Source of the DNA: Methylococcaceae bacterium
GTDB taxonomy: Bacteria > Pseudomonadota > Gammaproteobacteria > Methylococcales > Methylococcaceae
Assembly (NCBI GenBank): GCA_004299145.1
Contig: SCQD01000005.1
Location: 1 to 34,349, forward strand
Reading direction: 5' to 3'
DNA length: 34,349 nucleotides
In this document: in pieces, positions 1,238-34,349 of the stretch
Layout of the letters: every line of letters begins with the position of its first letter
How positions within the stretch are numbered: position 1 is the first letter of the stretch
The notes under the pieces: generated by a model
Seen by the model: the letters and a program-made list of their open reading frames with translations, nothing else
Told to the model about the DNA's origin: nothing
The model's database searches: none
Translations under genes and position numbers: made by a program

Positions 1238-2524
1238 ATGAACACCACCCGGAAACCCTCTATCTCCCTGGGATGCGCGCTTTGGCTGTTGCCGCTGGCT
1301 GCTTCGGCTGACGAACTCAACTCGGCCGACACCGCCTGGATTCTGACTTCCGCCGCGCTGGTGCTGTTCATGACGGTGCCTGGGTTGGCATTGTTTTACG
1401 GCGGACTGGTGCGCACCAAAAACGTGCTGTCGGTACTGGTGAACTGCTTTGCCATCACTTCCCTGGCGTCAATATTGTGGGTAGTCGTGGGGTACAGCTT
1501 GGCGCTCACCGAAGGCAATTCATGGCTGGGCGGCTGGTCGCGGCTGCTGTTGTCCGGCATGGACGCCGACAGTTTGCACGGCAATCTGCCGGAATCCGTT
1601 TATGTGATGTATCACCTGACCTTCGCCATTTTTGCTCCGGCGCTGATCGTGGGCGGCTTGGTGGAGCGCATGAAGTTTTCCGCGCTGCTGGCGTTTGTTG
1701 CTCTGTGGCTGCTGCTGGTGTATGTGCCGGTATGCCATTGGCTGTGGGGCGGCGGCTGGTTGCAGCAAATGGGGGTGATGGATTTTGCCGGCGGGATCGT
1801 GGTGCATACCAGCGGCGGCATCGCCGCACTGATGGCCGCGCTGATGCTGGGGCCGCGCCGGGGGTTTCCGCGTACTCCGATGCCGCCGCATAACCTGACC
1901 ATGACCGCGACCGGCGGCGGCATACTCTGGGTCGGCTGGCACGGTTTCAGCGCGGGCAGTGCGCTGATGGCCAACGGTGCGGCCGGCATGGCGATGCTCA
2001 CCACGCATATTGCAGCGGCCGCTGCGGCTCTGGTATGGATGGGCATCGAGTGGCTGCGTTTCGGCAAACCCAGCGTGCTGGGAGTGATCACGGGCATGGT
2101 GGCCGGCTTGGGCATGGTTTCACCGGCGGCGGGCTTTATCGGACCTGGCGGCGCCTTGTTGATTGGCATCACGGCGGGCGCGGTCTGTTTGTTTTCCATT
2201 CTGTGGATCAAGCGCAGGCTGGGCGTGGACGATGCTTTGGACGTGTTTCCCGTGCACGGCATAGGCGGGATGGTCGGCGCGGTGTTGACCGGGGTGTTTG
2301 CCGCGGAATCGCTGGGCGGGCGCGGCTTGGCCGGCGATGCGGGCATGCTGGCGCAAGTGGCCTTGCAAGCTTTCGGCGTGGGCGTCACCTTGGCCTGGAG
2401 CGGTGGGGTGAGCTTTATGCTGCTCAAAGGCCTGGACCTGGCATTAGGGTTGCGCGTCAACCCGGACGAAGAAACCGAGGGCCTGGATATCGCGCTGCAC
2501 GATTCCAAAGGCTACAACCCATAA
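1238..2524 (+). CDS. amt: Ammonium transporter (Amt/MEP/Rh family)
   Basis: This is an inner-membrane ammonium channel of 428 residues, normally trimeric. An N-terminal signal peptide (about residues 1-24, ending AASA) is followed by 11 hydrophobic segments. The pore twin histidines are visible as H190 (VVHTSGG) and H340 (VFPVHGIGG), exactly 150 residues apart as in E. coli AmtB H168/H318. D182, F129 in YHLTFAIFAPALIVGG and W170 in LWGGGW match other recruitment and gate positions. WVGWHGFSAGS is a variant of the usual WFGWFGFNAGS. The start is ATG with a weak upstream AGG. No glnK partner lies beside it, so PII control would have to come from elsewhere. The next gene is convergent. Confidence 0.95.
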   Translation: MNTTRKPSISLGCALWLLPLAASADELNSADTAWILTSAALVLFMTVPGLALFYGGLVRTKNVLSVLVNCFAITSLASILWVVVGYSLALTEGNSWLGGWSRLLLSGMDADSLHGNLPESVYVMYHLTFAIFAPALIVGGLVERMKFSALLAFVALWLLLVYVPVCHWLWGGGWLQQMGVMDFAGGIVVHTSGGIAALMAALMLGPRRGFPRTPMPPHNLTMTATGGGILWVGWHGFSAGSALMANGAAGMAMLTTHIAAAAAALVWMGIEWLRFGKPSVLGVITGMVAGLGMVSPAAGFIGPGGALLIGITAGAVCLFSILWIKRRLGVDDALDVFPVHGIGGMVGAVLTGVFAAESLGGRGLAGDAGMLAQVALQAFGVGVTLAWSGGVSFMLLKGLDLALGLRVNPDEETEGLDIALHDSKGYNP

Positions 2525-2555
2525 AAAAAGCGGTGGCTGCCCAGGCAACCACCGC
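2522..2555 (-). terminator. Rho-independent terminator of the beta-barrel gene
   Basis: A 12-bp stem with one mismatch (2530-2541 with 2544-2555) is followed, on the minus strand, by a run of seven T (the A-run at 2523-2529). It lies about 60 bp past the stop of the outer-membrane protein gene. The T-run is on the wrong side to serve amt efficiently. Confidence 0.75.
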
Positions 2556-2615
2556 GTGCAACAACGCCGATGAAAGCGTTAGAACCAGTCCATCGGTAGA
2601 AGGGAAGTTCGAAGT

Positions 2616-3986
2616 CTAGAAACTGACTACTACGTCAGCCGTAAACAACACCTGGTCACCCCGCTTGCCGCCGTCAAATGCCTTGACTTTATCGGACCAG
2701 TCGTAGCGGACGTTGGGGCGCAGGTTCAACCACTTCAGCGGTTTGTAACTCAGGCCGGCCGTAATGGCGTAATAGCTGCTGCCGTCGTACGGGTAGGCCG
2801 CGCCGACCGGGTTGATGGCGCCGCCGCAGGCGTATGAATCGCCTGCTCCATTGTTGACGTTGGTGCTGGCGACGCAGCGACCCGGTCCCCAGACGCGGAA
2901 GCCGCCGTGGTCGCGGAACCATTCCGCGCGCACGCCCGCGGTCAGGTTGTCCTTGATGTCGTAGAACAAATATTGGTTGATGCCGTACCAGCGAGCGTTT
3001 TCCGTTTTGCCGGAAAGCGCGCTATGCGAAGTGAGGACGTTGTCGGCATAGCCGTGGTCGTGCTGGATCACATAGTGCAATTTGTCGGTGAAGTTGTGCT
3101 TGCCGACCAGACTGTATAAAGCCCAGGCCGAGCTGGAATCTTCGCTGCGGTCGCCGGCGGTGGAAGTCAGCGCCAACGAGGTGCCTGCATCGTCGCTGGT
3201 CCAGGTGACGCCGCCCAGAAAGGCCCAGTTGCCCAGATCACGGTCAAAGCCGCCGTCCCAGCCGCCGGTGCTGCTGCCGGTGACTGCGCCGGCAGTGGCG
3301 CTCCAGTTCGAGTTGACCGAATAGTTGGCCAGGATGCCGGTATGCGTGAACGGCTCGCCGTATTGCATGGTATACGGTTTGGTGACGAAGAAGTTGTCCG
3401 GCGAGGTCACTACCTCATAACCGATCGGCGTATAAAAATGGCCGGCTTTCACGGAAACGCCGTTGCCCACCGGCAGGTTGAATTCAGCATAAGCTTGCGG
3501 CAGCGCGATGCCGTAGAAACGGTCGTTGTGGCTGTTGAGGTGCAAATCCCAATGCCCACGGTTGATCGGCGCGCCGGTGCGGGGATCGAATGGCCACGAC
3601 CCATAAGCCTGGGTAAAGATGGCGTCGGTGCCGTACATGAAATCCACGCGGCCACCCCAATCGAAACTGTCGCCGTTGACGTTGACCGCTTTTTGCAGAT
3701 ACAGGTACAACTGGTTCATCTGCAGTTCGCCGGTGCGGTCGTTGAACGTGACCGGGCCGTTGAAGTTATCCGGTGAACTGTGCATGTTGGCCGACACGCT
3801 GGATTCGATCCATCCGCCGAACTTGAGGTTCCAATCTTTCATGAGCTTGGCGTCGTTGATGTTGACGCCTGCCGCTTCAAGCAGGCCGGCAGCTTCATCA
3901 CCCGCGTGGACGGAGCCCGTGGCCGAGGCAACCAGGGCGCCCAGCGCCAATGCGCTGATGACCAGGCTGGATTTTTTCGTTTTCAT
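2616..3986 (-). CDS. Outer-membrane beta-barrel porin-like protein (BBP2/OmpL-like)
   Basis: The protein has 456 residues. A signal peptide (MKTKKSSLVISALALGALVA, cleavage after VHA) is followed by alternating aromatic/hydrophobic strands and a C-terminal phenylalanine (ADVVVSF), the usual signal for BAM-mediated insertion in the outer membrane. Phrases such as LPQAYAEFNLPVGNGVSVKAGHF, here given only as the strand around residues 165-185, fit the putative beta-barrel porin-2 family, whose substrates are unknown. The start at 3986 is preferred because AAGGGG lies 9 bases upstream; an in-frame TTG at 4007 would place that site inside the gene. A candidate sigma-54 promoter lies 60-80 bp upstream. 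Its place next to amt hints at a link with nitrogen supply, but that is inference. Confidence 0.8.
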   Translation of the reverse strand: MKTKKSSLVISALALGALVASATGSVHAGDEAAGLLEAAGVNINDAKLMKDWNLKFGGWIESSVSANMHSSPDNFNGPVTFNDRTGELQMNQLYLYLQKAVNVNGDSFDWGGRVDFMYGTDAIFTQAYGSWPFDPRTGAPINRGHWDLHLNSHNDRFYGIALPQAYAEFNLPVGNGVSVKAGHFYTPIGYEVVTSPDNFFVTKPYTMQYGEPFTHTGILANYSVNSNWSATAGAVTGSSTGGWDGGFDRDLGNWAFLGGVTWTSDDAGTSLALTSTAGDRSEDSSSAWALYSLVGKHNFTDKLHYVIQHDHGYADNVLTSHSALSGKTENARWYGINQYLFYDIKDNLTAGVRAEWFRDHGGFRVWGPGRCVASTNVNNGAGDSYACGGAINPVGAAYPYDGSSYYAITAGLSYKPLKWLNLRPNVRYDWSDKVKAFDGGKRGDQVLFTADVVVSF

Positions 3987-4046
3987 TTGCACACCCCTTA
4001 GTTTCAAGGACTAACATAGCCGGTTTAAGGCATTACGTGAAATTTT

Positions 4047-4064
4047 TAGCAGGATTGATGCCAA
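4047..4064 (-). promoter_or_regulatory. Candidate sigma-54 (-24/-12) promoter of the porin-like gene
   Basis: On the minus strand the sequence TTGGCATCAATCCTGCT has the diagnostic GG and GC doublets with exactly 10 bases between them and matches 10 of 13 fixed positions of the -24/-12 consensus. Transcription would begin near 4036-4038, leaving a leader of about 50 nt. The surrounding DNA is AT-rich. No activator-binding site was identified. Confidence 0.45.
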
Positions 4065-4175
4065 ATAAAAATAGCTTTATTATTCAGTTAGTTATGCGTT
4101 GATACAGGGGGGCTGTCGCGAATCTTTCGGCATTTATGCACAATTGTTGTGCATGATGCTCGATTTTGATTCAGC

Positions 4176-4209
4176 AAAAAAAACGCCGATGGGAATCGGC
4201 GTTTTTTTT
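4176..4209. terminator. Bidirectional intrinsic terminator after htpX
   Basis: A strong stem (ACGCCGAT with ATCGGCGT, loop GGGA) is flanked by eight-base A- and T-runs, so it would work in both directions. It lies about 25 bp past the htpX stop. A run of ten G follows directly at 4210-4219. The rest of the 3987-4234 gap shows only the AT-rich promoter region described separately. Confidence 0.85.
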
Positions 4210-4234
4210 GGGGGGGGGGTAAGTCGCTACGACC

Positions 4235-5131
4235 TTAGTGTTGCTGGCCCGACTCCAGCGCGGCAATGCGTTTTTCCAGCGGCGGATGGCTCATAAACAA
4301 CTCCATCCAGCCGTTGCCGCCACCGCGTATGCCGAATGCCATCATTTCCGCCGGCATTTCGGTAGGGTCTTTGGCGCGTTGCAAGGCGTGCAGCGCCGCG
4401 ATCATTTTGGCGCGGCCGGCCAAGCTGGCGCCGCCCGCATCGGCGCGGAATTCGCGCCAACGCGAAAACCACATGACTATCATGCTGGCGAGTATGCCCA
4501 GGACGATCTGCGCCACCATCTGCGTGATGTAATAGGCGGGACCAAAGCCGCCGGACTCTTCGTTATCCGAGCGCAGCAGGGTGCGATCCACCACGTAGCC
4601 GGCAATGGTGGCGAGAAAATACACAAACGTATTCACCACGCCCTGGATCAGCGTCATGGTGACCATGTCGCCGTTGGCCACGTGGGAAATTTCATGGCCC
4701 AGCACGGCTTCCACTTCGGACTGGTTCATGTTGTGCAACAGGCCGGAGCTGACCGCGACCAGGGCATTGTCGCGGCTGGCGCCGGTAGCAAAAGCATTGG
4801 GCTCGTGGCTGTCGAAGATGCCCACTTCCGGCATGCCGATGCCGGCCTGTTTGGACAGACGCCGGACGGTTTCCACCAGCCAGGTTTCGGTCGGGTTGCT
4901 GGGCCGTTCGATGACAAACACGCCCATCGAGCGCTTGGCCATCCATTTGGAGATGAACAGCGAAATAAACGAGCCCGTCATGCCCATGAATGCCGATACG
5001 ATCAGCAGATGGGTCAGGTTCAGGCCCACGCCGCGCTGCTGCATGAATTGACCCAGACCCAACAGGTGAAACAGCAGGCCGACGACCACCATGATGGCGA
5101 TGTTGGTGAGTAAGAATAAAAGTATGCGCAT
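4235..5131 (-). CDS. htpX: Membrane zinc metalloprotease HtpX
   Basis: HtpX is an M48-family inner-membrane protease that removes misfolded membrane proteins alongside FtsH, often under envelope or heat stress control. The 298 residues match the family length. Two N-terminal transmembrane helices (about 1-22 and 40-60) are followed by the catalytic HEISH at 146-150, two more hydrophobic segments (about 160-182 and 205-222), and the third zinc ligand E228 in RWREFRADAGG. The start ATG has GGAAGGA about 10 bases upstream. It is a single-gene unit, divergent from the LPS-kinase-like gene, and ends in a strong terminator. Confidence 0.96.
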   Translation of the reverse strand: MRILLFLLTNIAIMVVVGLLFHLLGLGQFMQQRGVGLNLTHLLIVSAFMGMTGSFISLFISKWMAKRSMGVFVIERPSNPTETWLVETVRRLSKQAGIGMPEVGIFDSHEPNAFATGASRDNALVAVSSGLLHNMNQSEVEAVLGHEISHVANGDMVTMTLIQGVVNTFVYFLATIAGYVVDRTLLRSDNEESGGFGPAYYITQMVAQIVLGILASMIVMWFSRWREFRADAGGASLAGRAKMIAALHALQRAKDPTEMPAEMMAFGIRGGGNGWMELFMSHPPLEKRIAALESGQQH

Positions 5132-5195
5132 ATCAGTTTTTCCTTCCGGGTTGCGAGTGCATTAGTATATTGAGCCCTCCAGCCAGGAAATCAAG

Positions 5196-5981
5196 TTGAA
5201 CCCTCATCAAGCCCCCCGTTGGCTGGCCCGCCTCGGCCATTTACTGGCTGGCCGTCGGCAGCTCTGGTGGCAAAACCCCGCCGCCGGCTCACAACCTGCG
5301 TTCAGCGACCTCGGCCACGCCTGGGATTGCACGGGTGCAACCGTATCCCGCGATGCCATCAGCGAAGTAAGGCGCATCGACATCGACGGGCACGGCTATT
5401 ACGCCAAGTATTACCGTCAACCGGGCAAGGGCTGGCGGCGCTGGCTGGGGCGCAGCCGCATCCGTACCGAGTGGGAAAACCTGCGGTTGTTTCGCGAGCT
5501 GGGCTTGCCGGTGCCGGACCTGGTGGCCTACGGCGAGCAATGGGACAGCGACGGCTACCGGGGCGTGATGGTAACGGCGGCATTGGCGAACACGGCGGGC
5601 CTGGATGCGCTCAGCGAGCGCATGCAGCAGCGCGAATGGCGCGCAGCGGTATTTGCCCAGCTGGCACGCCATCTGGCCGTGCTGCACCGGCACGGCTTTG
5701 CCCACGGCGATCTCAACTGGCGCAACCTGCTGATTACGCGGAGCGGCGAGCCGCGCCTGTTTTTCATCGATTGCCCGCAAGGCCGCTGCTGGCCCTGGCC
5801 GCTGCGCTCACAAAAAATCGACAAAGACTTGTGGATGCTGGACAAGCTGGGGCGGCAGAAGCTGTCCCGTAGCCAACGGTTGCGGTTTTATCTGCTTTAT
5901 CGCGGTGTGCAGCGCCTGGACGCAGCCGATAAACAACGGCTGCGCCGTATCGCCAACAAACCGGCAAAGCGTGAGCGCTGA
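5196..5981 (+). CDS. Lipopolysaccharide core / Kdo kinase-like protein (WaaP family)
   Basis: The 261 residues show a small kinase fold of the Kdo/WaaP group, which phosphorylates sugars of the LPS inner core on the cytoplasmic face of the inner membrane. An ATP-binding lysine sits in YYAKYY (about residue 70), the catalytic loop is HGDLNWRNLL (about 170-179) and the metal-binding aspartate is in FFIDCPQGR (about 191). The likely start is TTG at 5196, because AGGAA lies 6-7 bases upstream and no better ATG precedes the fold. The sugar target cannot be assigned, and no other LPS core genes are adjacent. Its stop is only 9 bases from the convergent regulator gene, with no terminator between them. 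Confidence 0.82.
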   Translation: MNPHQAPRWLARLGHLLAGRRQLWWQNPAAGSQPAFSDLGHAWDCTGATVSRDAISEVRRIDIDGHGYYAKYYRQPGKGWRRWLGRSRIRTEWENLRLFRELGLPVPDLVAYGEQWDSDGYRGVMVTAALANTAGLDALSERMQQREWRAAVFAQLARHLAVLHRHGFAHGDLNWRNLLITRSGEPRLFFIDCPQGRCWPWPLRSQKIDKDLWMLDKLGRQKLSRSQRLRFYLLYRGVQRLDAADKQRLRRIANKPAKRER

Positions 5982-5990
5982 TGGATCGGC

Positions 5991-7370
5991 TTACTCCTGT
6001 ACTTTCAAGCCGTATTTCCGCACCCGGTAGCGCAAGGTTTCGCGGGTGGCGCCCAGCGCGCGGGCGGCGGCGGTCAAATTGTTGCCGGAACGCTCCAGCG
6101 CGGTTTTGATGATGTGGCTGTCCATGTCGTCCAGCGCCATGCTGCCGTCCAGCGGCAGATAGATGCCGTTTTGATCGGCATGCGGCTGGACGGAGGGTTG
6201 ACCCGGTAGTTGCAGCCACTGGCCGGGAAACGCCGCGCCGTCGGCGAACAGCACGCAACGTTCGATGACGTTGCGCAGTTCTCGCGCATTACCGGGCCAG
6301 TGGTAGGCGCGCAGCTTGTCCCAGACCTCCTGGGCGATGGTTTTAACCTGTTTGCCGGCTTTGGCGTTGAATTCGGCCACGAACAGCGGCACCAGTTCGT
6401 CCAGGTCCGCTTTCGATTCGCGCAAAGGCGGCAAGGTAAGGCGGAATACGCTGAGGCGGTGATACAAGTCGGCGCGAAAGCCGCCGTTGATCACCATTTT
6501 TTCCAGATCGCGGTGGCTGGCGGCGATGATTTGCACATCCACCTGAATTTCTTTTTCGCCGCCCAAGCGGCGTACTTTGCGGTCGTCGATGGCTTTGAGC
6601 AGCTTGGCCTGCAATTCCAGCGGCATTTCGGCGATTTCATCCAAAAACAGCGTGCCGCCGCCAGCTTGCTCCAGCAAACCGCGATGCCGCGCCGTGGCGC
6701 CGGTGAACGCCCCGGCTTCATGGCCGAACAGCTCCGATTCCAGCAATTCACGCGGCAATGCCGCGCAGTTCAGTTCCACCAGCGGTTGCTGGGCGCGTGG
6801 GCCGCCATAGTGCAGAATGCGCGCCGCCAAGCCTTTGCCGGTGCCGGTTTCGCCGCCCAGTATCAAGGCGCTGAAAGGAACCTGCATCAGCTTGCCCAGC
6901 ATCAGGCGCACTTCCTGGGCTTTGGCGCTACGGCCCGCATAAGCTTCCAGCGAGTAGCGGCGATGATGCGACTGGGTCTGATCGATGACGCGCCGTTGCA
7001 GCCCGGCGTTGCGCGCGGCGCTGGCCACCACCAGGTCCAGCCGGTCCAGGTCGCAGGGTTTTTCCAGAAAATCATAAGCGCCCAGCCGCAAAGCCCGCAC
7101 CGAATCGCGCACGCTGCCGTAACCGGTGAGAAACAGCCACTCGGCGTGGCTGGTTTTGCCTTGCGCGGCCTCCATCAGATCCAGCGCGTTGCCGTCGGGC
7201 AGGTTCATGTCCGAGAGTACCAGCAGCGGGTCCAGGCGCTGGTCGATCAGCAGGTGGCGAGCTTCGGCCAGTTGCGTGACCAGCACCACATCCCAGCCGG
7301 CCTGACGGTAGTGGTGCGACAACTCGGCGCCCAGCAGTTTTTCGTCTTCGATCAGCAGTAAAGTGTCCAT
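5991..7370 (-). CDS. Sigma-54-dependent response regulator (NtrC family)
   Basis: The 459 residues comprise a receiver domain (about 1-120; acidic pair E8/D9, phospho-acceptor D54 in SDMNLPDG, T82, K104), an AAA+ domain, and a Fis-type helix-turn-helix at the C-terminus (about 425-457, [20 protein letters not shown]). The AAA+ domain has Walker [10 protein letters not shown] at 172-180, the sigma-54 contact loop GAFTGA at 220-225, and Walker B GGTLFLDE at about 238-245. Phosphorylated regulators of this type open sigma-54 promoters from upstream sites. No histidine kinase is adjacent, so the signal is unknown. The HAD gene upstream is 23 bp away on the same strand and may be co-transcribed. 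The only sigma-54-like site I found nearby precedes the porin-like gene. Confidence 0.93.
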
Positions 7371-7393
7371 GGCGGGTATTTACCAACGATAAA

Positions 7394-8050
7394 TCACAGC
7401 AATCCCGCCGTCACCACCGCGTCCAGCGTCGGCAATACCCGTAACGCCAGTTCCGCTCCGGCTCTGGCTGTGTCGGCACAGTGGGTGATCAGCACCGGCG
7501 CCATGCCTGCCTGATGGGCGGCGGTCAGGCCGGGCAGGGAGTCTTCCAAGACCAGACAGCTATCCGGTTCAGCCCCCAATAGCCGCGCCGCTTGTAAAAA
7601 CACGTCCGGGGCCGGTTTGCCGCGTGCCACGTCTTCACGGGCGGCCATGATGGGAAACGTGGCGTCCAGGCCGGCCAGCCGCAAGCACAGTTCGGCGTAG
7701 TGGCGGCGGCTGTTGGTGGCCAGGCCGAATGGTAGGCGCCGCCGCTGGATGTGTTCCAGCAAGGCGTGAAAGCCCGGCTTTACCGCGATGCCGTGGCGGT
7801 CCACGTGGCGCTGCCAGTGCCGGTCGCCGCGTTGCTTGAAATCCGCCAGCGCGAAGTCCGTGCCCAGTTCCGCCAGCAACGCCGCTTCCACTTCGCTGCC
7901 TTGCAGGCCCGACAAGCCGGCAAAAAAAGCGTCGTTCAGGCTATGCCCCATGTCGGTCGCGGCTCTTTCCCAGGCCAGCCGGTAGGTGGTTTCGGTGTCC
8001 AGCACCAGGCCGTCCAGGTCGAAAATTACCGCTGTGAATCGTGTCGTCAT
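7394..8050 (-). CDS. HAD-family hydrolase (beta-phosphoglucomutase/phosphatase-like)
   Basis: This is a soluble haloacid-dehalogenase-type hydrolase of 218 residues. The nucleophile motif FDLDGLVLDTE near the N-terminus has Asp as nucleophile and Asp as general acid. Motif II is ATNSR, the motif III lysine is in ARGKPAPDVFL, and motif IV is LVLEDSLPG. This combination is typical of subfamily IA enzymes such as beta-phosphoglucomutase and small phosphosugar phosphatases; the substrate cannot be told. The frame could start at a TTG at 8083, but the ATG at 8050, 8 residues before the first motif, fits the family better. It is divergent from the sulfurtransferase gene, with a gap of about 50 bp. 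Confidence 0.88.
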   Translation of the reverse strand: MTTRFTAVIFDLDGLVLDTETTYRLAWERAATDMGHSLNDAFFAGLSGLQGSEVEAALLAELGTDFALADFKQRGDRHWQRHVDRHGIAVKPGFHALLEHIQRRRLPFGLATNSRRHYAELCLRLAGLDATFPIMAAREDVARGKPAPDVFLQAARLLGAEPDSCLVLEDSLPGLTAAHQAGMAPVLITHCADTARAGAELALRVLPTLDAVVTAGLL

Positions 8051-8101
8051 TTCGGTTACTCTCTGTTTCACCTTTTTGTGCAAACATTATCGCCTTTGAT
8101 C

Positions 8102-8962
8102 ATGAACTATCCCAATTCTTCTGCTTTGCTGGACTGCCGGTGGTTGGCCGACAATCTGGACCATAGCGATGTGGTGGTGCTGGACGCCGGTTTTTTTCTG
8201 CCCACCGAGCGGCGCGACGCCGCCGCCGAATATCGGCAGTGCCATATTGCCGGCGCGCAGTTTTTCGATATCGATGCGGTGGCCGACCACGGCACGCCAC
8301 TACCGCACATGCTGCCCAGCCCGGATACGTTCGCGGCGGCGGCAGGCAAACTGGGCATCGGCAACGATACCTTGGTGGTGACTTACGACAATAACCGCTT
8401 CATGGCGGCGGCGCGGGCGTGGTGGATGTTCCGCGTATTCGGCCACGACCAGGTGGCGGTACTGGACGGCGGTTTGCAGCGCTGGCGCGCGCTGGGCTTG
8501 CCGGCCGATGCCGCCGAGGTGGCGCGCGCGCCGCGCCGTTTCGAGGCCGGCTTTCGGCCCGGACTGGTCCGCGATCTGGCACAAATGCGCCGCTGGGTGC
8601 AGGCGCCGGATAGGCAACTGCTGGATGCCCGCTCGCCCGGCCGTTTCGAAGGCAGCGCTCCCGAGCCCCGGCCCGGCGTCCGCTCCGGCCATATTCCCGG
8701 CAGCCGCCATCTGTTTTATGCCGATCTGGTGGACCCGGACAATCACCAGTTGTTGCCAAACGATGCCTTGGCGGCGCGTTTTGCCGCGGCGGGCATCGAT
8801 ACGGCCCAGCCGGTGACGACCACCTGCGGCACCGGGGTGACCGCCGCGATATTGGCGCTGGCGCTGTATCAATTGGGCCGGCAGGACGTGGCGGTGTACG
8901 ATGGTTCCTGGAGTGAATGGGGCGGTCTGGCGGATACGCCGGTGGCGCTCGGGCCGGCTTGA
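8102..8962 (+). CDS. sseA: 3-mercaptopyruvate sulfurtransferase (tandem rhodanese)
   Basis: The 286 residues form two rhodanese domains; the N-terminal one is structural and the C-terminal one is catalytic. The enzyme moves sulfane sulfur from 3-mercaptopyruvate or thiosulfate to a thiol acceptor. The active loop at C242 reads CGTGVTA. It is closest to the CGSGVTA of mercaptopyruvate sulfurtransferases and unlike the CRKGVTA of thiosulfate-specific enzymes; the Ser-to-Thr change is mild. The ATG at 8102 begins the conserved region, and the long in-frame extension upstream overlaps the divergent HAD gene and is spurious. No clear ribosome-binding site precedes it. Confidence 0.88.
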   Translation: MNYPNSSALLDCRWLADNLDHSDVVVLDAGFFLPTERRDAAAEYRQCHIAGAQFFDIDAVADHGTPLPHMLPSPDTFAAAAGKLGIGNDTLVVTYDNNRFMAAARAWWMFRVFGHDQVAVLDGGLQRWRALGLPADAAEVARAPRRFEAGFRPGLVRDLAQMRRWVQAPDRQLLDARSPGRFEGSAPEPRPGVRSGHIPGSRHLFYADLVDPDNHQLLPNDALAARFAAAGIDTAQPVTTTCGTGVTAAILALALYQLGRQDVAVYDGSWSEWGGLADTPVALGPA

Positions 8963-8988
8963 TAAAGGCCGCAACCCTTTTATCTCCC

Positions 8989-9035
8989 CCTCACCCCAAC
9001 CCTCTCCCGGGGGGAGAGGGAGCCCGTTCCTGGGG
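8989..9035. repeat. C-rich/G-rich palindromic repeat, also present inside murD
   Basis: CCTCTCCC and GGGAGAGG form a compact inverted repeat. The 19 bases at 9006-9024 plus the following GTTCCTGGG recur at 24351-24383 within murD, with a spacer of 1 base here and 5 bases there. Confidence 0.75.
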
Positions 9036-9062
9036 CGGGCTCTGCTCACCACAACCTTACAT

Positions 9063-9110
9063 CGTTCCCACGCTCTGCGTGGGAACGCATCCCGGGACGC
9101 TCCGCGTCCC
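9063..9110. repeat. TTCCCACGC palindrome plus adjoining small palindrome
   Basis: A 25-bp near-perfect palindrome (9063-9087) is followed by the 17-bp palindrome GGGACGCTCCGCGTCCC (9094-9110). The first recurs at 9389-9411 (inverted) and at 18129-18153. Confidence 0.85.
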
Positions 9111-9137
9111 GAATGGTGCTTGGAATTTGGCTGCCAA

Positions 9138-9281
9138 TAACTTCCCGACATGTTCCAAGGCGCTGGCGTAGGGTGGGCACCGCCCACCACAGCCTTGCCA
9201 GGCCGCCCGCCTTGGTTGGATGCGCGGGCTCTTGGTGGGCGATGCCCACCCTACCGGGAATGCAAACCGGGAAGTTGTTTT
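9138..9281. repeat. MITE-like nested inverted repeat
   Basis: Outer ends AACTTCCCG and CGGGAAGTT enclose a 12-bp inverted pair (9168-9179 with 9243-9254, GTAGGGTGGGCA and its complement). Each inner arm itself folds as a small hairpin. The end motif ACAACTTCCCG recurs at about 11977, just before the 58-bp stem-loop at 12001. No transposase is encoded, so it would have to move in trans if it is mobile. Confidence 0.6.
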
Positions 9282-9363
9282 TGACCCAATCCTTAGCCTA
9301 TGGGCGGCATTGGTTTGTTATGCAGGACAGTCAGTTGTTCTCCAAACGGATACGACACGACAC

Positions 9364-9411
9364 GGGACGCAGAGCGTCCAAGGCTGCATTCCCACGCAGA
9401 GCGTGGGAACG
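9364..9411. repeat. Inverted copy of the TTCCCACGC palindrome pair
   Basis: GGGACGCAGAGCGTCC (9364-9379) and a 23-bp palindrome (9389-9411) repeat the 9063-9110 unit in the opposite orientation. The unit ends about 35 bp before the pilU start. Confidence 0.8.
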
Positions 9412-9445
9412 ATAAAATAAATCAAGTTCTTTTGAGGTAAACCGC

Positions 9446-10579
9446 ATGGAATTTAAAGATTATTTACGCACCCTGGTGACCAAAGACGGTTCGGATATTT
9501 ATCTGTCCGTGGCGGCGCCGCCGGCGGCCAAGTTTCAGGGGCGCTTGACGCCGCTGGATAGCCATATTCTGACGCCGGAAGATACCCATCGTATCGCTTA
9601 CGATTTGATGAATCCTGAGCAGCAAAAGGATTTCGAGCGTAAGCCGGAAATGAACCTGGCCATCAGCGAGCCGGGCATAGGCCGCTTCCGCGTCAATATA
9701 TTCAAGCAACGCAACTTCATCAGCATGGTGATCCGCAATATCAAAACGGAAATTCCCAACGCCGACAAGCTGGGGTTGCCGCCGATATTAAAAGAAGTGA
9801 TTATGGAAAAGCGCGGGCTGATTTTATTCGTGGGCGGTACGGGTTCCGGTAAATCCACGTCTTTGGCCGCCTTGATCGATTACCGCAACAGCAATGCCGG
9901 CGGACACATCATTACCATCGAAGACCCTATCGAGTATGTGCACCCGCATAAAAAATCCATCGTCAACCAGCGCGAAGTGGGGGTGGATACCGACACCTTC
10001 GAAGACGCGCTGAAAAACACCCTGCGCCAGGCGCCGGACGTGATACTGATCGGCGAAATCCGCGCCCAGGAAACCATGGAGCACGCCATCGCTTTTGCCG
10101 AAACCGGCCATTTGTGCTTGTCGACGCTGCACGCCAACAACGCCAACCAGGCGCTGGACCGTATCATCAACTTTTTCCCGGAAGCGCGCCGTAATCAGCT
10201 GTTGCTGGATTTGTCGCTCAATCTCAAAGCGTTCGTGTCGCAGCGTCTGGTTCCCACCGTCGACGGCAAGCGCGTGGCGGCCATCGAAATTCTGCTGGGT
10301 TCTCCGCTGGTGGCCGATACCATACGCAAAGGCGAGGTGCACGCCATCAAGGAAGTGATGGAAAAGTCGGAAAATATCGGCATGCAGACTTTCGATCTGG
10401 CCTTGTATAACCTGTATAAGGACGGACGTATCACGCTGGACGAAGCGTTGCGCAATTCGGATTCACCGAACAATTTGCGCCTGAAAATCAGCCTGAGTGA
10501 AGAAACCCGCGATACCGCGCGCCGGGAAACCGGTAGCGCCGGCAGCGGGCCGACGCTGGAGCTGCTGCATGATGATTAG
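9446..10579 (+). CDS. pilU: Type IV pilus retraction ATPase PilU
   Basis: PilU is a hexameric cytoplasmic ATPase that assists PilT in retracting type IV pili. The 377 residues contain Walker A GGTGSGKST at 130-138, the Asp box ITIEDPIEY at about 156-164, Walker B DVILIGEIR at about 198-206 and the His box AETGHLCLSTLHA at about 218-230. GRFRVNIFKQRN with SMVIRNI at about 79-99 is more like PilU than PilT. The start ATG follows GAGGT by 7 bases. pilT, usually adjacent, is not in the window, so the gene stands alone between the repeat patch and a cytochrome gene. Confidence 0.92.
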   Translation: MEFKDYLRTLVTKDGSDIYLSVAAPPAAKFQGRLTPLDSHILTPEDTHRIAYDLMNPEQQKDFERKPEMNLAISEPGIGRFRVNIFKQRNFISMVIRNIKTEIPNADKLGLPPILKEVIMEKRGLILFVGGTGSGKSTSLAALIDYRNSNAGGHIITIEDPIEYVHPHKKSIVNQREVGVDTDTFEDALKNTLRQAPDVILIGEIRAQETMEHAIAFAETGHLCLSTLHANNANQALDRIINFFPEARRNQLLLDLSLNLKAFVSQRLVPTVDGKRVAAIEILLGSPLVADTIRKGEVHAIKEVMEKSENIGMQTFDLALYNLYKDGRITLDEALRNSDSPNNLRLKISLSEETRDTARRETGSAGSGPTLELLHDD

Positions 10580-10610
10580 CTGCTTATAAAAATCTATTTT
10601 GGAGGGGTAT

Positions 10611-11960
10611 ATGTCGACCTACGGCAAAATGTTGTTGGGTATTGGCTTGGTATGGGTGACCCAGTTATATGCGGCGGATTATCCTTTGCCGGAACCGGCC
10701 GTCAAAACTGATTTTCCTCGTCCCGACGATGCAAAAACCAATCTGGGCAGGCTGTTGTTTTACGACAAGATACTCAGCGGCAACCGCAATATTTCCTGCG
10801 CCACTTGTCACCATGCGCTCACGGCCACCGGCGACGGCTGGTCTTTATCGGTGGGCGAAGGCGGCTTAGGCCTGGGCGTAGCGCGCAACACCGGTCAGGG
10901 CCTCAACGAAATTCACGCCCGCGTGCCGCGCAATGCACCGCCGGTATTCAATCTGGGGGCTGCGTCTTTCGATACTTTGTTTGCCGATGGCCGGGTGCAG
11001 GCCGATGCCGGTCAGCCCAGCGGCTTCAAGACGCCCGCCGGCGATGATTTGCCCACCGGTATCCTGGAAAACGTTTTGGCCGCGCAGGCCATGTTTCCGG
11101 TGACGTCAGGCACGGAAATGGCCGGGCAGTCCGGTGAAAACGATATTGCCAATCTCAGCGCCGTGAACGATTTCAATGGAGTATGGCAGTTATTGGCTGA
11201 ACGTCTGCGCTCGGTTCCCGAATACGTGGCCTTGTTCCAGCAAAGCTTTCCCGAGGTGCATGGCGCGGCGGACATTACCTATGCCCACGCCGCCAATGCC
11301 ATCGCCGCTTTTGAAGGCACGGCCTGGCGCTGTGACAACAGCCGTTTCGATCAGTACCTGCGCGGCCGCCAGGACGTTTTAAGCGCGCAGGAAAAACGCG
11401 GGGTAAAGTTGTTTTATGGCAAGGCTGATTGCGCCCAGTGCCACAGCGGGACGTTCCAGACGGACGGTGATTTCCACGCCATCGCCATGCCGCAGATCGG
11501 GCCGGGTAAGGGCGACAATCTGCCGGGATATACCGATGGGCTGGATGATTTCGGCAGGGAGCGCGTGACTAAAAAACGCGAAGACCGGTTTAAATTCCGT
11601 ACGCCCAGCCTGCGCATGGTGGAGTGGACGGGGCCGTGGGGACACGATGGCGCTTACAATAGTCTGGAAGGCGTGGTTCGGCATCACCTGAATGCGACGG
11701 CGGCGCTGAAAAGCTACGATACCCGGCAAGCCGTTTTACCGTTGCGGCCTGATTTGTCCGCGCTGGATTTTGTCGTGCAAAACGATCCGGCCAGGAGAAA
11801 ATCCATTGCGGCGGCATCGGAAATACAACCCATCGCTTTGGATGACAGGGAGGTTGCCGATCTGATGGCGTTTCTGTTCTCGCTGACCGACCATCGTTGC
11901 ACCGATTTGCGCCGCGATGTGCCGCAAAGGGTGCCGAGCGGGTTGACTATTGCCGATTAA
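10611..11960 (+). CDS. Periplasmic di-heme cytochrome c peroxidase / MauG-like protein
   Basis: The 449 residues begin with a signal peptide (about 1-21, ending LYAA). Two c-type heme sites follow, CATCH at 63-67 and CAQCH at 274-278. FPVTSGTEM supplies a candidate methionine ligand, and the C-terminal FRTPSLRMVEWTGPWGHDGA is the family signature. Members reduce hydrogen peroxide with electrons from small cytochromes or, as MauG-like enzymes, oxidise a partner; which applies here cannot be decided. The protein is longer than the classic enzyme of about 330 residues. The start at 10611 has GGAGGGG 4-5 bases upstream; an earlier TTG at 10599 would overlap that site. A 58-bp stem-loop lies 40 bp after the stop and may end the transcript. 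Confidence 0.9.
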   Translation: MSTYGKMLLGIGLVWVTQLYAADYPLPEPAVKTDFPRPDDAKTNLGRLLFYDKILSGNRNISCATCHHALTATGDGWSLSVGEGGLGLGVARNTGQGLNEIHARVPRNAPPVFNLGAASFDTLFADGRVQADAGQPSGFKTPAGDDLPTGILENVLAAQAMFPVTSGTEMAGQSGENDIANLSAVNDFNGVWQLLAERLRSVPEYVALFQQSFPEVHGAADITYAHAANAIAAFEGTAWRCDNSRFDQYLRGRQDVLSAQEKRGVKLFYGKADCAQCHSGTFQTDGDFHAIAMPQIGPGKGDNLPGYTDGLDDFGRERVTKKREDRFKFRTPSLRMVEWTGPWGHDGAYNSLEGVVRHHLNATAALKSYDTRQAVLPLRPDLSALDFVVQNDPARRKSIAAASEIQPIALDDREVADLMAFLFSLTDHRCTDLRRDVPQRVPSGLTIAD

Positions 11961-30789: not shown

Positions 30790-31248
30790 TCAAAACGCCA
30801 AAGCGCCCAACTCGGGCGCCAGCTCGCCTAAATCTTCCAGCCCTTCATCCTGCAGCCACTCTTCACAGCGAACGTTCCACACGTCCTCGTCCCATATTTC
30901 GAATTTATTGCCCTGGCCGGTGAGCACCACCCGCTTGTCCAGCCCGGCGAATTTGCGCAAAGGTTCGGAAACCAGCACGCGGCCCTGGCTGTCCATTTCG
31001 CACTCGGTCGCATGGCCGATGAGCAGCCGTTGTAAACGCCGCGCTTGGGGATTCAAGGTCGGCAAGCGAATCAGCTTGCGCTCGATTTCTTCCCACTCCT
31101 GCAAAGGGTAGAGCAGCAGGCACTTGTCCCGATCGACGGTCAACACCAGCTGACCCTCGCAGGACTCCTGCAATTCGGCACGATAACGCGTAGGGATCGC
31201 CAAACGCCCCTTGGTATCGAGATTGATGGAAGTAACACCCCGGAACAC
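30790..31248 (-). CDS. mraZ: Transcriptional regulator MraZ
   Basis: MraZ is a DNA-binding protein of the AbrB/SpoVT fold, forming rings, that represses its own dcw promoter in E. coli. The GTG at 31248 gives 152 residues, the same as E. coli, and has AAGGG 7 bases upstream; the longer reading frame upstream runs into the operator. Two copies of the fold are seen, with [13 protein letters not shown] near residue 11 and [18 protein letters not shown] near residue 85. It is the first gene of the cluster. Confidence 0.96.
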
Positions 31249-31281
31249 TACACGCCCTTCTGTACTATTTTTTCCATTTTT

Positions 31282-31306
31282 TTCCCTATTTCCCCACAAT
31301 GCCCCA
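31282..31306 (-). promoter_or_regulatory. MraZ operator boxes
   Basis: On the minus strand TGGGG (31306-31302), a 5-base spacer and TGGGG (31296-31292) reproduce the TGGGN direct repeats with 5-bp spacing known for MraZ sites. A third, degenerate GGG (31284-31286) follows at nearly the same period. They lie at about +1 to +25 of the predicted start point, a good place for repression. Confidence 0.75.
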
Positions 31307-31344: not shown

Positions 31345-31388
31345 GCCACTTAAAAATAAAATGTGCGTCCTGTGATACACAGCCCATT

Positions 31389-31432
31389 GACGGCGTGGAC
31401 TTGAATTGATGACGGCGCGGACTTGAATTGAA
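31389..31432. repeat. Two tandem 22-bp repeats, probable transposase-binding end repeats
   Basis: Two adjacent 22-bp units (minus-strand unit starts TCAATTCAAGTCC and ends CGCCGTCA) differ at one base. Part of the unit (CGCCGT) recurs once more near 31436-31441. An edge beginning 5'-TGT lies at 31371 (or 31362), between the repeats and the mraZ promoter. Tandem 22-bp sites next to the terminus are the layout of the Mu right end; some IS ends (for example IS21 type) are also built of repeats. Confidence 0.6.
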
Positions 31433-31753
31433 ATAACGGCGATCCCGGTTTGAAAGCCACTCGCGGCTTGGCTGCCGTTCTTGATCTGGAAAAATTTTTT
31501 CGGGGGAGTGAAAAAAATTCGGTGATCCTGGTTGAAACACCAGAGCCGCTAGGCTGAATGTGGAGAAATCAGAGAGGGACCACTGTAGTAATCCGATATT
31601 CACATGGTTAGCAATGATCTACAATCGGACCTAGCGGGTGACTGCGACACGGTGCTATTCCCCCGGCCGTAGCACGGCGGATAACCGCCGGAGCGCCATG
31701 CGAGGTTCCTGCCGCTTCAATGCGGCGGGGTGGGGGGCCTCGCCAGCCATCCG
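31433..31753. other. Gene-free stretch beside the element end
   Basis: No gene is credible here. Seen are an AT stem (31491-31520, a T-run facing an A-run around CGGGGGAG), the hairpin CGGCGG/CCGCCG near 31677-31692, and a smaller one near 31710-31730. None has the form of an intrinsic terminator with a clean T-run. Confidence 0.5.
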
Positions 31754-32143
31754 CTACTTTCCTTTTTCATTGCGCATCAAAATATTGCTGTCTTCGTTGG
31801 AAGTCTGAATATCGTTGAGATACAACCGACGCATTTTTGCCACAACGTCATAGGTATGCGCGACTGAAATACCGTACTTTTTTGCCAAAGCGGCGTAGCC
31901 TGCACCTTGCCTGTGATCTTTGAACAACTCGCGGTTACGCCTTTCGGCCTTTAAGTTGACAGCCTTGGGGAGGTAGATCAGTTCCCCATTGAATTGGTCA
32001 GTGATTAAAAACACCAGGTCCAGCGCAGCGTTTTCTGCATTGCCCACCCCAATATCCTGTAGAAAATGGGCGGTAACCGCCAACATCCCCGCAAATACCT
32101 CGGGCACCTTTGCTGCATTGTGGCTCTGATATTCTCTCTTCAT
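31754..32143 (-). CDS. Mor transcription activator family protein (1)
   Basis: The 129 residues fit the Mor/C family of Mu-like phages, which activates middle or late phage promoters. An N-terminal dimerisation part is followed by ALDLVFLITDQFNGELIYLP (about 40-59), the family signature, and then a helix-turn-helix (about 82-108, ALAKKYGISVAHTYDVVAKM). The start ATG at 32143 lacks a strong ribosome-binding site. A TATATCATAAT stretch about 30 bp upstream may serve as a -10 region. It is the gene nearest the presumed element end. Confidence 0.8.
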   Translation of the reverse strand: MKREYQSHNAAKVPEVFAGMLAVTAHFLQDIGVGNAENAALDLVFLITDQFNGELIYLPKAVNLKAERRNRELFKDHRQGAGYAALAKKYGISVAHTYDVVAKMRRLYLNDIQTSNEDSNILMRNEKGK

Positions 32144-32216
32144 GACGCGCGTGGCTTTTCAAAAATTATGATATATGGGTAGACCGCCAGGCCTCAGTGA
32201 GAAACACCGGATTTTG

Positions 32217-32744
32217 TCAACCCTTGAGGCCAGATTCCTCAAGCTGGGCCGCCAGCGCATCACGCTGGCGATTGAGTTCTTCAATCTCCACTTCGAGCTG
32301 TGCGGTCAGCTTCAGGCGTTCAGCTACAGGCATAGCGTCATGAGGCCAGTCTTGTCCATCCAGAGCATCGGCGATCCGCTGCTTGATCAGGTCACCGAAA
32401 TACCAGCAAACGGCTGTAGGAGCGATTTCGATCGGGGGAAAATAGCCCGCAGAAAACCAAGGAATTCGCATCCCGTCTTCACTATCCACCATCCGCCGCA
32501 AGCGGATCATATCTTGCGGCTGAGACTTTACAGCCCGGCGTAGCTGTTCAACAAAAGGGCGAGCTATCCGGTCGATGTCCTCACCCACAAAAGACAGGTA
32601 ATCGGCCTTGGACAACGGCGCGTTGATAACCTGGTCGCGCTCACGCTGCTTGGCGTCAATCTGGTCGTCAAGGTCGTGTATCTGGCTGACCAACTCACGA
32701 ACGGATGAATTGAGTTGATCCAATAGTTGTTTGATGTCGGCCAT
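32217..32744 (-). CDS. Coiled-coil phage-associated protein, function unknown
   Basis: The 175 residues begin with a long predicted coiled coil (about 4-40, rich in L, D, Q, K) and end with another (about 135-172, LEVEIEELNRQRDALAAQLE). The middle is an unassigned globular part (RIPWFSAGYFPPIEIAP). I do not recognise the family. The start at 32744 has AAGGG 7 bases upstream and lies 1 base after the stop of the preceding small gene, so the two are coupled. Confidence 0.6.
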   Translation of the reverse strand: MADIKQLLDQLNSSVRELVSQIHDLDDQIDAKQRERDQVINAPLSKADYLSFVGEDIDRIARPFVEQLRRAVKSQPQDMIRLRRMVDSEDGMRIPWFSAGYFPPIEIAPTAVCWYFGDLIKQRIADALDGQDWPHDAMPVAERLKLTAQLEVEIEELNRQRDALAAQLEESGLKG

Positions 32745-32745
32745 G

Positions 32746-32931
32746 TTAGCGCCCTTCCCGTTGCAGAGTAGCTTTAACCGCGCCGTCCCGCCGACTAAAA
32801 GGCTTGGGCATAGGCTCGATGACACCGCCCGCCAGCAGTTCATTCGCTTGCTGTCCACTGAATTCGGCTAATTGGCCGTACTTATAGCGCACGCCATCTG
32901 CGTGGATATTACCTAAGCATCGATATTGCAT
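32746..32931 (-). CDS. Small phage protein resembling Mu gp35-type proteins
   Basis: The 61 residues have the pattern of small proteins found after the capsid genes of Mu-like phages: a short beta-rich N-terminus (YRCLGNIHADGVRYKYGQLA) and a hydrophobic segment ending LLAGGVIEPMP. The start at 32931 has GAAGGA about 8 bases upstream; an ATG two codons earlier is too close to that site. The family assignment rests on general pattern only. It is about 15 bp after the I-protease-like gene. Confidence 0.55.
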   Translation of the reverse strand: MQYRCLGNIHADGVRYKYGQLAEFSGQQANELLAGGVIEPMPKPFSRRDGAVKATLQREGR

Positions 32932-32946
32932 CGTCATTTTCCTTCT

Positions 32947-33558
32947 CTAAAGATTGAGCGCATAACACGCCAGATAGTTGGCTTCCGAATAGCTCAGGCC
33001 GGAACAATCCTGCCTGAATTCCGCCGCCAATCGTTCACTTTCGGTCATGGGTAACCGGTCTGGATAGGCGGATTCGGAAAAGTTCAGGGAGTTGTGAACA
33101 TTAACGGGATAGCCCTCGCAGAAATTCAAAAAACCACCGCATCGTTCGGAAAACTCCGGTGGCGTCATGCCCTTGATAGCGGGCGGCATAGCGCCAAGAA
33201 AGCCCACATGGCGCAAATAGTAGGAGTCTGGTCGGGGGTTGTTGGGTGCGTAGGGCGGATAAAAAGCCGCCGAAACATACCGGTAACGACCAGCACGCAC
33301 CAGGGTTACCAAGCTATCGCTGACTGCTGCTTGGGCATATAGATTGCCGTTCTTTTCCACCAGCACATTCACTTCACCAAAGCCGGGCTGGTTATCCGAG
33401 GGGTGTCCCAACACCAGCGGTGCAAGCTGCCTTTCCGGGGCGTAAACCGCCATCATTTGGAAAACGTCCCGCTCACTAAAATGCCGGGTGTTCCCCGCTG
33501 AATCAGTATGAATACCGGCCCGAAATATTTGGAACAGCTTTTGATGGCGCTGCTTCAC
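32947..33558 (-). CDS. Mu I-like phage head protease/scaffold, shortened
   Basis: The 203 residues match the N-terminal part of Mu-type I proteins, which process the scaffold of the phage head. Seen are APLVLGHPSDNQPGFGEVNV (about 41-60), LYAQAAVSDSLVTLVRAGRY with YVSAAFYP, and YYLRHVGFLGAMPPAIKGM. Full-length relatives have about 350 residues and carry the scaffold at the C-terminus; here the chain turns into an unrelated-looking tail (MTESERLAAEFRQDCSGLSY) and stops. The GTG start overlaps the upstream Mor-like stop as GTGA, implying coupling. No major capsid gene follows. Confidence 0.7.
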   Translation of the reverse strand: MKQRHQKLFQIFRAGIHTDSAGNTRHFSERDVFQMMAVYAPERQLAPLVLGHPSDNQPGFGEVNVLVEKNGNLYAQAAVSDSLVTLVRAGRYRYVSAAFYPPYAPNNPRPDSYYLRHVGFLGAMPPAIKGMTPPEFSERCGGFLNFCEGYPVNVHNSLNFSESAYPDRLPMTESERLAAEFRQDCSGLSYSEANYLACYALNL

Positions 33559-33971
33559 GACCTTGCCCCCCGGCGCCGAACCTGCCGGTTCGGCTTCCCA
33601 TCGCGGGCGATGACGGTGGCAACGGTGCGGTCGCTCACCCGGTGGACTTGCGCAATATCACGAATGATTTGCCCCTCGGTATAAGCCTGGAGAATGGCCT
33701 TGTCCCGGCAATACCGTTGCAAACGGTGCGCACGTGGCACATAGAAGCTTGAGTTGGCGCACTTGGCCGACAGCTTTTGTGCGGCCTCCAAGCCAATGGC
33801 CTGCGCCAGTTCGCTGGATTCCTCCACAGTGCAAGGCACACACACGGGACCGCCGCCATAGCGGTAAATCAGTCTCAGCACAGCGGCCAAAGGAAGGCCG
33901 TCCTGGAGCAGCAACCGGCAGGAAGCAGGCAGCAAGCGGGTTAACGTTTCGTCGGGGATTGTGGTGTCCAT
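33555..33971 (-). CDS. Mor transcription activator family protein (2)
   Basis: The 138 residues are a second, divergent Mor-like protein: LRLIYRYGGGPVCVP (about 30-44) and IGLEAAQKLSAKCANSSFYVP (residues about 56-76, shown in part) are followed by a helix-turn-helix (about 100-122, IRDIAQVHRVSDRTVATVIA) and a basic tail. The ATG at 33971 is preferred, since the upstream extension to 34070 has no family features. It overlaps the I-like gene by 4 bases, an unusual pairing of a regulator with a head gene. Confidence 0.65.
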   Translation of the reverse strand: MDTTIPDETLTRLLPASCRLLLQDGLPLAAVLRLIYRYGGGPVCVPCTVEESSELAQAIGLEAAQKLSAKCANSSFYVPRAHRLQRYCRDKAILQAYTEGQIIRDIAQVHRVSDRTVATVIARDGKPNRQVRRRGARS

Positions 33972-34222
33972 GGCGACTATGGAAACTCTTCTGATGTTGG
34001 AGGGTAATCTGAAATCTTTCAGAGGGAACGCACGGGGTGGCGGGTTTCGTCCGGCGCAAAGGTGTTGCACGGAGCGAAACCCAAGAAAGTCGCATTTACC
34101 CAGCTTTCCAGCGGCTTGACCAAGCTGGCGGAGAACCCGCGTTTATAAAGCTTTACGGCGGGGCTTCCTGCCTTGTAACAGCTTGGGCGGGGCCGAAGTA
34201 CAGCCCCGCCCGCCAAACCGCA
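33972..34222. other. Gap with a strong hairpin between phage genes
   Basis: There is no convincing gene. A 9-bp GC stem (34185-34193 with 34203-34211) lies just after the stop of the right-hand gene and may act as a terminator, though no T-run follows. The reading frame at 34019-34216 lacks a start site with a ribosome-binding signal. Confidence 0.5.
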
Positions 34223-34348
34223 TCAGGTGGCCTGTTTACGCCGCCCCTGCTGTTTTTCTCGATCAGCGACTCGCGCACGCACGATAGCCGCTGCGGCTTC
34301 GTCAAACATGGCTTCATTTTGCCTGGCGCTGGCATGAATCACTTCCAG
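34223..34348 (-). CDS. C-terminus of an unidentified gene, cut by the window edge
   Basis: An open frame of 41 residues enters from the right edge and ends at TGA (34223-34225). It is helical and basic (FDEAAAAIVRARVADREKQQ, then GRRKQAT). The composition would fit a phage or nucleic-acid-binding protein tail, but no family can be named. The overlapping frame at 34153-34335 is less protein-like. Confidence 0.4.
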   Translation of the reverse strand: MEVIHASARQNEAMFDEAAAAIVRARVADREKQQGRRKQAT

Positions 34349-34349
34349 T

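Follow-up and report, generated by a model that had tools for sequence, protein, structure and literature searches.

Bacteriophage satellites of the P4-like, PICI, cfPICI, PLE and PICMI types carry their own integrase, and satellite factors redirecting the capsid size of the helper phage are known, such as P4 Sid, SaPI CpmA/B and PLE TcaP. The same five families are named in the accessible part of PMC11389934, where none is described as depending on a transposable helper, and SaPI rcm (accessible part of PMC12409344) adds a further case of capsid redirection for comparison. A literature search, which included the accessible parts of PMC13232261, PMC9239132, PMC12924245 and PMC5977238 and had most subscription journals outside its reach, returned no published description of a transposable-phage satellite. 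The present analysis concerns a stretch of 34,349 nucleotides from a Methylococcaceae bacterium (the window, corresponding to the whole of contig C79), the last part of which probably belongs to a compact satellite of transposable phages of the BcepMu/Mu type, marked by Mor-family late activators, a core-deleted head protease and a satellite-specific coiled-coil protein.

BcepMu-like phages (Bcepmuvirus; the prophages of Escherichia coli HH107, EcPF16 and AW1.7) encode homologues of the Mor, DUF3102, protease, tape-measure and small terminase (TerS) proteins of the satellites described below. They measure 30-34 kb, as compared to 6.9-7.8 kb for the satellites (6.4 kb for the damaged copy L040), and possess a transposase, an ExeA-like ATPase, a large terminase, portal, capsid, sheath and baseplate, none of which was found in the satellites. 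Such phages are characterized by having a transposase of their own in one element with terminase, portal, capsid and a tail module, a combination not seen in the relatives of the window element, the window copy being itself incomplete. Phage satellites lack a complete virion gene set and are packaged by a helper; the relatives show the former, and the latter is proposed for them. Integrase satellites are likewise small, helper-related and provided with few morphogenesis and regulatory genes, but no integrase was found among the nine genes of the complete relative L037, and members of the present family occur at scattered sites with transposon-type duplications. Miniature inverted-repeat transposable elements (MITEs) are moved in trans by a helper transposase through shared ends, as would be the case for the satellites, but have no protein-coding genes (PMC11389934, in its accessible part), whereas the satellites encode regulators and virion-assembly proteins.

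The rightmost 3 kb of the window carry five open genes on the minus strand, followed by tandem repeats and by mraZ. In the direction of transcription they encode Mor1 (33555-33971), a Mor-family late activator of the phrog_836 type (Pfam Mor, E=1.5e-9; phrog_836, E=1.8e-19); a short head maturation protease of 203 residues (32947-33558; phrog_976, E=2.8e-45); a gp35-like open reading frame (ORF) of 63 residues (32746-32937); a coiled-coil protein of 175 residues (32217-32744), satellite-specific and predicted to be all-helical by AlphaFold; and Mor2 (31754-32143), a Mor-family late activator of the phrog_532 type (Pfam Mor, E=4e-18; phrog_532, E=3.6e-20), which is the last gene before the end. 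The gp35-like ORF, for which no match was found in the Pfam or PHROG libraries, resembles, as judged by eye, small ORFs located after the capsid genes in Mu-like phages (L029 and L003). The preliminary description of this DNA had reported the same order, ending in 22-bp repeats, together with a four-base overlap (GTGA) between a Mor gene and a shortened protease gene lacking a capsid gene next to it. The Pfam and PHROG matches and the repeat scan described below bear this out: the GTG start of the protease lies inside the stop of Mor1, only positions 29-173 of the 415-position phrog_976 profile are matched, by about the first 145 residues of the protein, and what follows, after one small ORF, is the coiled-coil gene instead of a capsid gene.

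The recurrence of this block was evaluated by scanning viral contigs with a short-protease alignment, from which the best 80 of 582 confirmed loci were considered, and with a coiled-coil alignment, which produced 4 loci; all were annotated by using home-made hidden Markov models (HMMs) that include the proteins of the window. The best 80 of the 582 loci, several of which are near-copies of one another, contain 78 complete protease ORFs, one of them an 81-residue fragment of a split gene. Three are intact short proteases (L074, L075 and L108), and in all three cases a Mor gene is found within 1.5 kb upstream, the coiled coil comes next and there is no capsid gene. Among the 74 long proteases of the same set, 65 have a capsid gene within 2.5 kb and 9 do not, while none is accompanied by the coiled coil. 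Starting from the coiled coil, Mor and a short protease are present at three of the four loci (L070, L071 and L072), L070 being on the same contig as L108. The block of Mor, short protease and coiled coil, without a capsid gene, recurs in E. coli, Citrobacter and Enterobacter as well. The features used to define the family, namely a short protease with a C-terminal tail, a coiled coil following it and no capsid gene next to it, are all present in the window.

The window protease shares 40% identity with the short protease of E. coli over nearly the whole length, 54% with that of L074 (residues 7-203) and 50% with that of L075 (residues 6-193). L074 (1-17852), which holds its closest relative among the best 80 of the 582 loci, has a tape-measure gene before the block and a baseplate gene after it. 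When genome contigs were scanned with the window protease, L003 was the one relative obtained; its protease is full-length (446 residues) and followed by a capsid gene. The window's genome contains one phrog_976 protease and six Mor matches; a protease match was obtained in 6 of 101 related genomes, and besides the window's only that of genome G058 is short.

When aligned with five full-length relatives (365-446 residues), the proteins of the window (203 residues), of G058 (241 residues) and of E. coli (204 residues) retain the catalytic domain and the extreme C-terminal tail, most of the central scaffold region being absent. The tail motif of the short proteases, S[YF]SEA, is similar to the extreme C-terminus of some full-length proteins and, by analogy with other scaffolds, may bind the capsid protein. 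The model of the window protease (mean predicted local distance difference test score 81) shows a beta barrel, with residues 139-159 forming a disordered linker and residues 173-184 and 190-202 two confidently predicted C-terminal helices. Its top Foldseek matches are herpesvirus assemblins (E 3e-4), the best being the protease of Kaposi's sarcoma-associated herpesvirus, with a weak TM-score of 0.37-0.39; T4 gp21 is found at rank 29 (E 0.014). Over 37 protease sequences, H52 and H117 are invariant and S96 is conserved in at least 90%; by analogy with assemblins, we take these three residues to be the catalytic triad of an enzyme of predicted activity. The phrog_976 match, the predicted fold and the His, Ser, His order are those of phage and herpesvirus head maturation proteases, and point to an assemblin-like catalytic domain retained in the short protein, the support from the fold being weak but consistent.

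The complete elements of the family were found in enterobacteria. A plasmid search with the window protease led to an IncFIC plasmid of Citrobacter and to IncFIB plasmids of Enterobacter, all of which encode a short protease behind Mor. Both plasmid backbones also exist free of the element, and the comparison of filled and empty sites (L034 with L035, L031 with L036) reveals clean insertions of 7782 and 6924 bp, flanked by 6-bp duplications. Perfect target duplications of 6 bp are present in all seven satellites with both ends in view, L070 and L071 having one end in view only; duplications and empty sites show that these elements have moved in the past. Phage Mu duplicates 5 bp of its target, the length that had been suggested for the window element, and the relatives depart from it both in the length of the duplication and in the absence of MuA/MuB from L037. 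In E. coli, the short-protease gene was found in 39 of 5426 complete genomes, in 33 of them over at least 80% of the query, at no more than two places per genome. Of the four E. coli loci examined, one is at ybhJ, one within a lambda-like prophage, one between sbmC and dacD, and one close to infA and a tRNA-Ser gene.

The usual gene order of the enterobacterial satellites includes small Arc/HicB-like genes and a Gp27/TerS-like or phrog_4623 gene, all directed leftward, and, rightward, genes for a DUF3102-like protein, a protein of 95-96 residues, Mor, the short protease, the coiled coil and a tape-measure protein. By Pfam and PHROGs, no recombinase, integrase, primase, MuA/MuB, portal, large terminase or capsid was identified in L037, which has nine genes. 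Inside the ends of L031, L034, L038 and L039, no recombinase, portal, large terminase or capsid is annotated, although the gene tables of the plasmids may be incomplete. L040 (5065-11438, E. coli SK1144, near the tRNA-Ser gene) is interrupted by an IS5 transposase gene, and no tape measure is annotated in it. Genes with the same 86% identity as those of L040 occur in further E. coli, with one O25:H4 among the matches listed.

Candidate helpers were identified by using the left end of a satellite as query. Matches were obtained in 26 E. coli genomes: 10 are satellite carriers, while the other 16 match only the first 50-51 bases (about 86% identity). Two of these 16, HH107 and EcPF16, as well as AW1.7, each contain a BcepMu-like prophage of the size given above, with genes for a DDE transposase, an ExeA-like ATPase, Mor, a DUF3102 protein and late functions. 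The prophages of HH107 and AW1.7 encode a full-length protease of 365 residues, and that of EcPF16 is devoid of part of the head module. In both HH107 and EcPF16 the target duplication is 6 bp long and both termini align with satellite termini, each with two sites about 23 bp apart. Because ends and 6-bp duplications are common to both kinds of element, the helper transposase is inferred to act on the satellites. Its gene was found in 631 of the 5426 E. coli genomes, 24 of which have it with an identity of at least 90%, and strain AW1.7 contains a helper prophage, inserted in an arginine decarboxylase gene, together with two places carrying the short-protease gene, one of which was examined. 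In G001, a genome of the same genus as the window's, a prophage BcepMu-like by inspection ends on its late side near tandem GCGCGATAAAT sites (L023, 2983-3020), which resemble the sites of the E. coli helpers.

As an alternative, the element could be a domesticated anti-phage one, whose short protease and coiled coil would protect the cell by poisoning procapsids when a Mu-like phage comes in, the spread of the element itself being secondary. In favour of this are the lower frequency of the satellite protease gene with respect to the helper transposase gene in E. coli (39 versus 631 genomes) and the dominant inhibition to be expected from a core-deleted scaffold with a capsid-binding end. This explanation is very improbable: intact termini and perfect duplications at many sites indicate mobility, and Mor, truncated TerS and tape-measure genes are unnecessary for defence. 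Ten proteins, eight from enterobacterial satellites and two from the window, were compared with defence families, and produced no match other than a weak one between the window coiled coil and ZorA (E=0.0085).

The satellite proteins were compared with those of the helpers and with each other. Identity between satellite and helper is 48% for the tape measure, 47% for the protease domain, 29% for Mor and 33% for the DUF3102 protein. The first 67 residues of a 114-residue satellite protein share 43% identity with the 181-residue TerS of the helper. The tape measure has 827 residues in the satellite (1026 in L037) and 821 in the helper; a shortening of the tail by the satellite tape measure was considered and is unsupported in E. 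coli, the lengths being equal or greater. Two very different Mor types are exchanged between otherwise similar satellites (L031 and L040 versus L034 and L037-L039), as if matched to the late promoters of different helpers. The ratio of nonsynonymous to synonymous substitution rates (dN/dS), calculated for enterobacterial satellites only, on five loci, with L037 and L040 excluded and pairs without synonymous differences set aside, ranges from 0.06 to 0.21 for the protease, from 0.09 to 0.23 for the coiled coil, from 0.07 to 0.14 for the tape measure and, within one type, from 0.08 to 0.18 for Mor. At the sequence level, the genes of the enterobacterial satellites are under purifying selection.

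These values bear on the possibility, also raised in the preliminary description, that the window contains the decayed end of an ordinary Mu/BcepMu-like prophage, from which the capsid gene and the rest of the head module were deleted. The window copy is interrupted by the end of the contig and its other end was not found, the genome is fragmented (G000; 353 contigs, 4.64 Mb) and contains other Mu-like pieces, and dead copies do exist, as exemplified by L040. Against decay, all five window genes are open frames, the short protease and the coiled coil recur elsewhere, with protease identities of 40-54%, and the relatives have perfect ends and target duplications. A decayed prophage end is disfavoured, and we consider it unlikely, on the ground that separate lineages share the short-protease design and that, in the only lineage allowing the measurement, it is subject to purifying selection.

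The coiled-coil protein of the window is 27% identical to the E. coli protein encoded after the short protease (BLASTP, E=6e-13). AlphaFold predicts helices at residues 2-40, 46-86 and 140-170, and six coiled-coil sequences have in common, close to the C-terminal helix, an invariant W, P and ER pair. No Pfam or PHROG family was found above threshold for the window protein, and neither this nor the E. coli coiled coil gave a match at E 0.01 among 50,697 phage records. The protein was found in 3 of 369 genomes of the class, including the window's own, the third match being weak (E 6e-4). A distant relative (E=3e-8) was noticed in L155 (G136 contig C34, 3302-12585), in an element that also encodes a tyrosine integrase, a tail protein and an AAA ATPase; elements of the integrase type may thus contain the coiled coil as well.

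The short-protease locus of G058 (L022, contig C1, 1-5400) lies at the start of the contig and encodes a primase/helicase, a TubC_N-like protein (below the Pfam cut-off), the 241-residue short protease, gpG, a 368-residue protein with a weak tape-measure match and, last, Mor. The protease has two SFSEA-like repeats at its C-terminus. L022 is a related satellite type.

The primase/helicase-like gene of G058 and the integrase of the L155 element would both fit a P4/PICI-like satellite, based on integrase and primase and equipped with Mu-type late genes, in which case the 22-bp repeats would be something other than transposon ends; such genes could lie in the left half of the window element, which is out of view. 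This is quite unlikely for the window, given that neither integrase nor primase was found in the complete relative scanned, L037, that seven relatives have transposon ends and that the window element stops at a similar end with tandem sites.

At the end of the window element, two tandem 22-bp repeats (31388-31431) are candidate transposase-binding sites of its right end. The two units (31388-31409 and 31410-31431) are identical at 21 of 22 bases, and no other pair of 13-mers between 31300 and 34349 reaches 11 identities at a spacing of 20-25 bp. Applied to the relative L070, the same scan picked the pair of sites at the right end (6621, with a spacing of 23), which have the sequence of the ends verified by target duplications. 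The exact double-repeat pattern occurs once in the window's genome; with one 22-bp unit and up to 3 mismatches, two further single sites with 3 mismatches were found (C253 and C281), compared to 1 for the control. An insertion-sequence end was considered as the source of the repeats, and a 248-base query over the end gave no plasmid match at E 0.1. No match to the 22-bp repeat end was found in viral contigs and plasmids.

The gene beyond the repeats is mraZ (30790-31299, minus strand), whose start is at 31299. Homology of the region upstream of mraZ with a genome of the same genus is clear only up to about 31352, and the repeats start at 31388; the edge of the element is therefore placed between 31353 and 31388, where the 'TGT' reported earlier is a possible terminus. 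On the other side, the contig stops at 34349, inside the element, and interrupts a further minus-strand ORF (34223-34349), visible with its 3' end only and without family match in Pfam or PHROGs.

Other parts of the window's genome were searched for the remainder of the element and for a helper. The gene located upstream of mraZ in G001 has an orthologue on contig C98, upstream of which host genes, and no element, were found within the 12 kb examined. A portal search of the genome was empty, 14 controls being likewise silent. Contig C186 contains the left part of a Mu-type prophage (L026, 4902-11908), with repressor, transposase, B-like protein, gp16-like protein, Mor, a 207-residue scaffold and a capsid gene (identified by eye) interrupted by the contig end. 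This prophage may or may not be the helper of the window element, whose end motif has no copy on C186 at up to 1 mismatch.

A second locus of the same genome, on contig C107 (L025, 1-2818, minus strand), encodes a primase-like protein, Mor, a 38-residue ORF and a capsid protein. The small ORF corresponds approximately to the first 15 and the last 22 residues of the 207-residue C186 scaffold, and a stretch of 493 bp over the scaffold end and the capsid start is 93% identical between the two contigs. The sequence differences proper to C107 argue against an assembly artefact as the origin of this mini-scaffold, and the locus looks like a second, capsid-carrying satellite. The parallel of a core-deleted mini-scaffold supports the idea that the core-deleted protease alters the helper head.

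Taken together, these data make it quite probable that what lies at the end of the window is the late half of a satellite of a transposable phage, whose transposition and packaging would depend on a helper. The earlier suggestion of a compact satellite, using the transposase and capsid of a helper, is well supported by the complete relatives, which show shared ends, 6-bp duplications and low dN/dS and in which no transposase or capsid gene was found; by extension it would apply to the window copy, whose other half lies off the contig. Several observations weigh against such an assignment. The left half, the target duplication and a helper of the window element were not found, nor was a second pair of 22-bp repeats; searches of the same genome for a BcepMu-type transposase and a DUF3102 gene, run without a positive control, were also negative. 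The end of the window element has the architecture of the relatives, two sites 22 bp apart, but its sequence differs from the enterobacterial repeat, so that its helper would belong to another lineage. The border of the family is not sharp, because G058 has a short protease without a coiled coil detectable by HMM, while L073 has the coiled coil without a short protease. No satellite genome was found among the 50,697 phage records, the one match (4%) being in a tail gene, so that packaging is putative. A PDB comparison of the coiled coil gave no match at E 0.001, and to these points are to be added the low TM-score of the protease, the restriction of the selection estimates to enterobacteria and the unsupported tail shortening. 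L073 itself (583-11471), from a viral contig, contains a Mu transposase, Mor and a coiled coil with two gpT-type capsid genes lying on either side.

In the satellite mechanism that we propose, the transposase of the helper would insert and replicate the satellite in trans when the helper is active, and the satellite's own Mor protein or proteins would switch on the satellite late genes simultaneously with those of the helper. The short protease would probably enter the helper procapsid through its C-terminal tail, and the coiled coil could act as a substitute or competing scaffold, changing, together with the protease, the size of the capsid or diverting its assembly. In some enterobacterial members, the truncated small terminase and the left end may recruit packaging, and the tape-measure gene of the enterobacterial members may add tail functions. 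The proposed role, altering the helper procapsid, is the same as for Sid, CpmA/B, TcaP and rcm; unlike these, the present family would exert it, as judged from its genes, through a core-deleted protease-scaffold and a coiled coil without matches in phage records.

The broader proposition, that Enterobacteriaceae and the host of the window share an undescribed family of recombinase-less satellites, inserted and replicated by a transposable helper and remodelling the helper head with core-deleted scaffolds that keep the capsid-binding end, is evenly balanced between being right and wrong. E. coli AW1.7, in which helper and satellite genes are found together, makes helper dependence directly testable. 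Elements depending on the transposition of a helper for insertion and replication would represent a way of life intermediate between that of MITEs and that of phage satellites. Core-deleted scaffolds would offer an easy means of studying the control of capsid size by scaffold proteins and, in view of the second, unrelated example found on C107 in the same genome, may be a general weapon of satellites.

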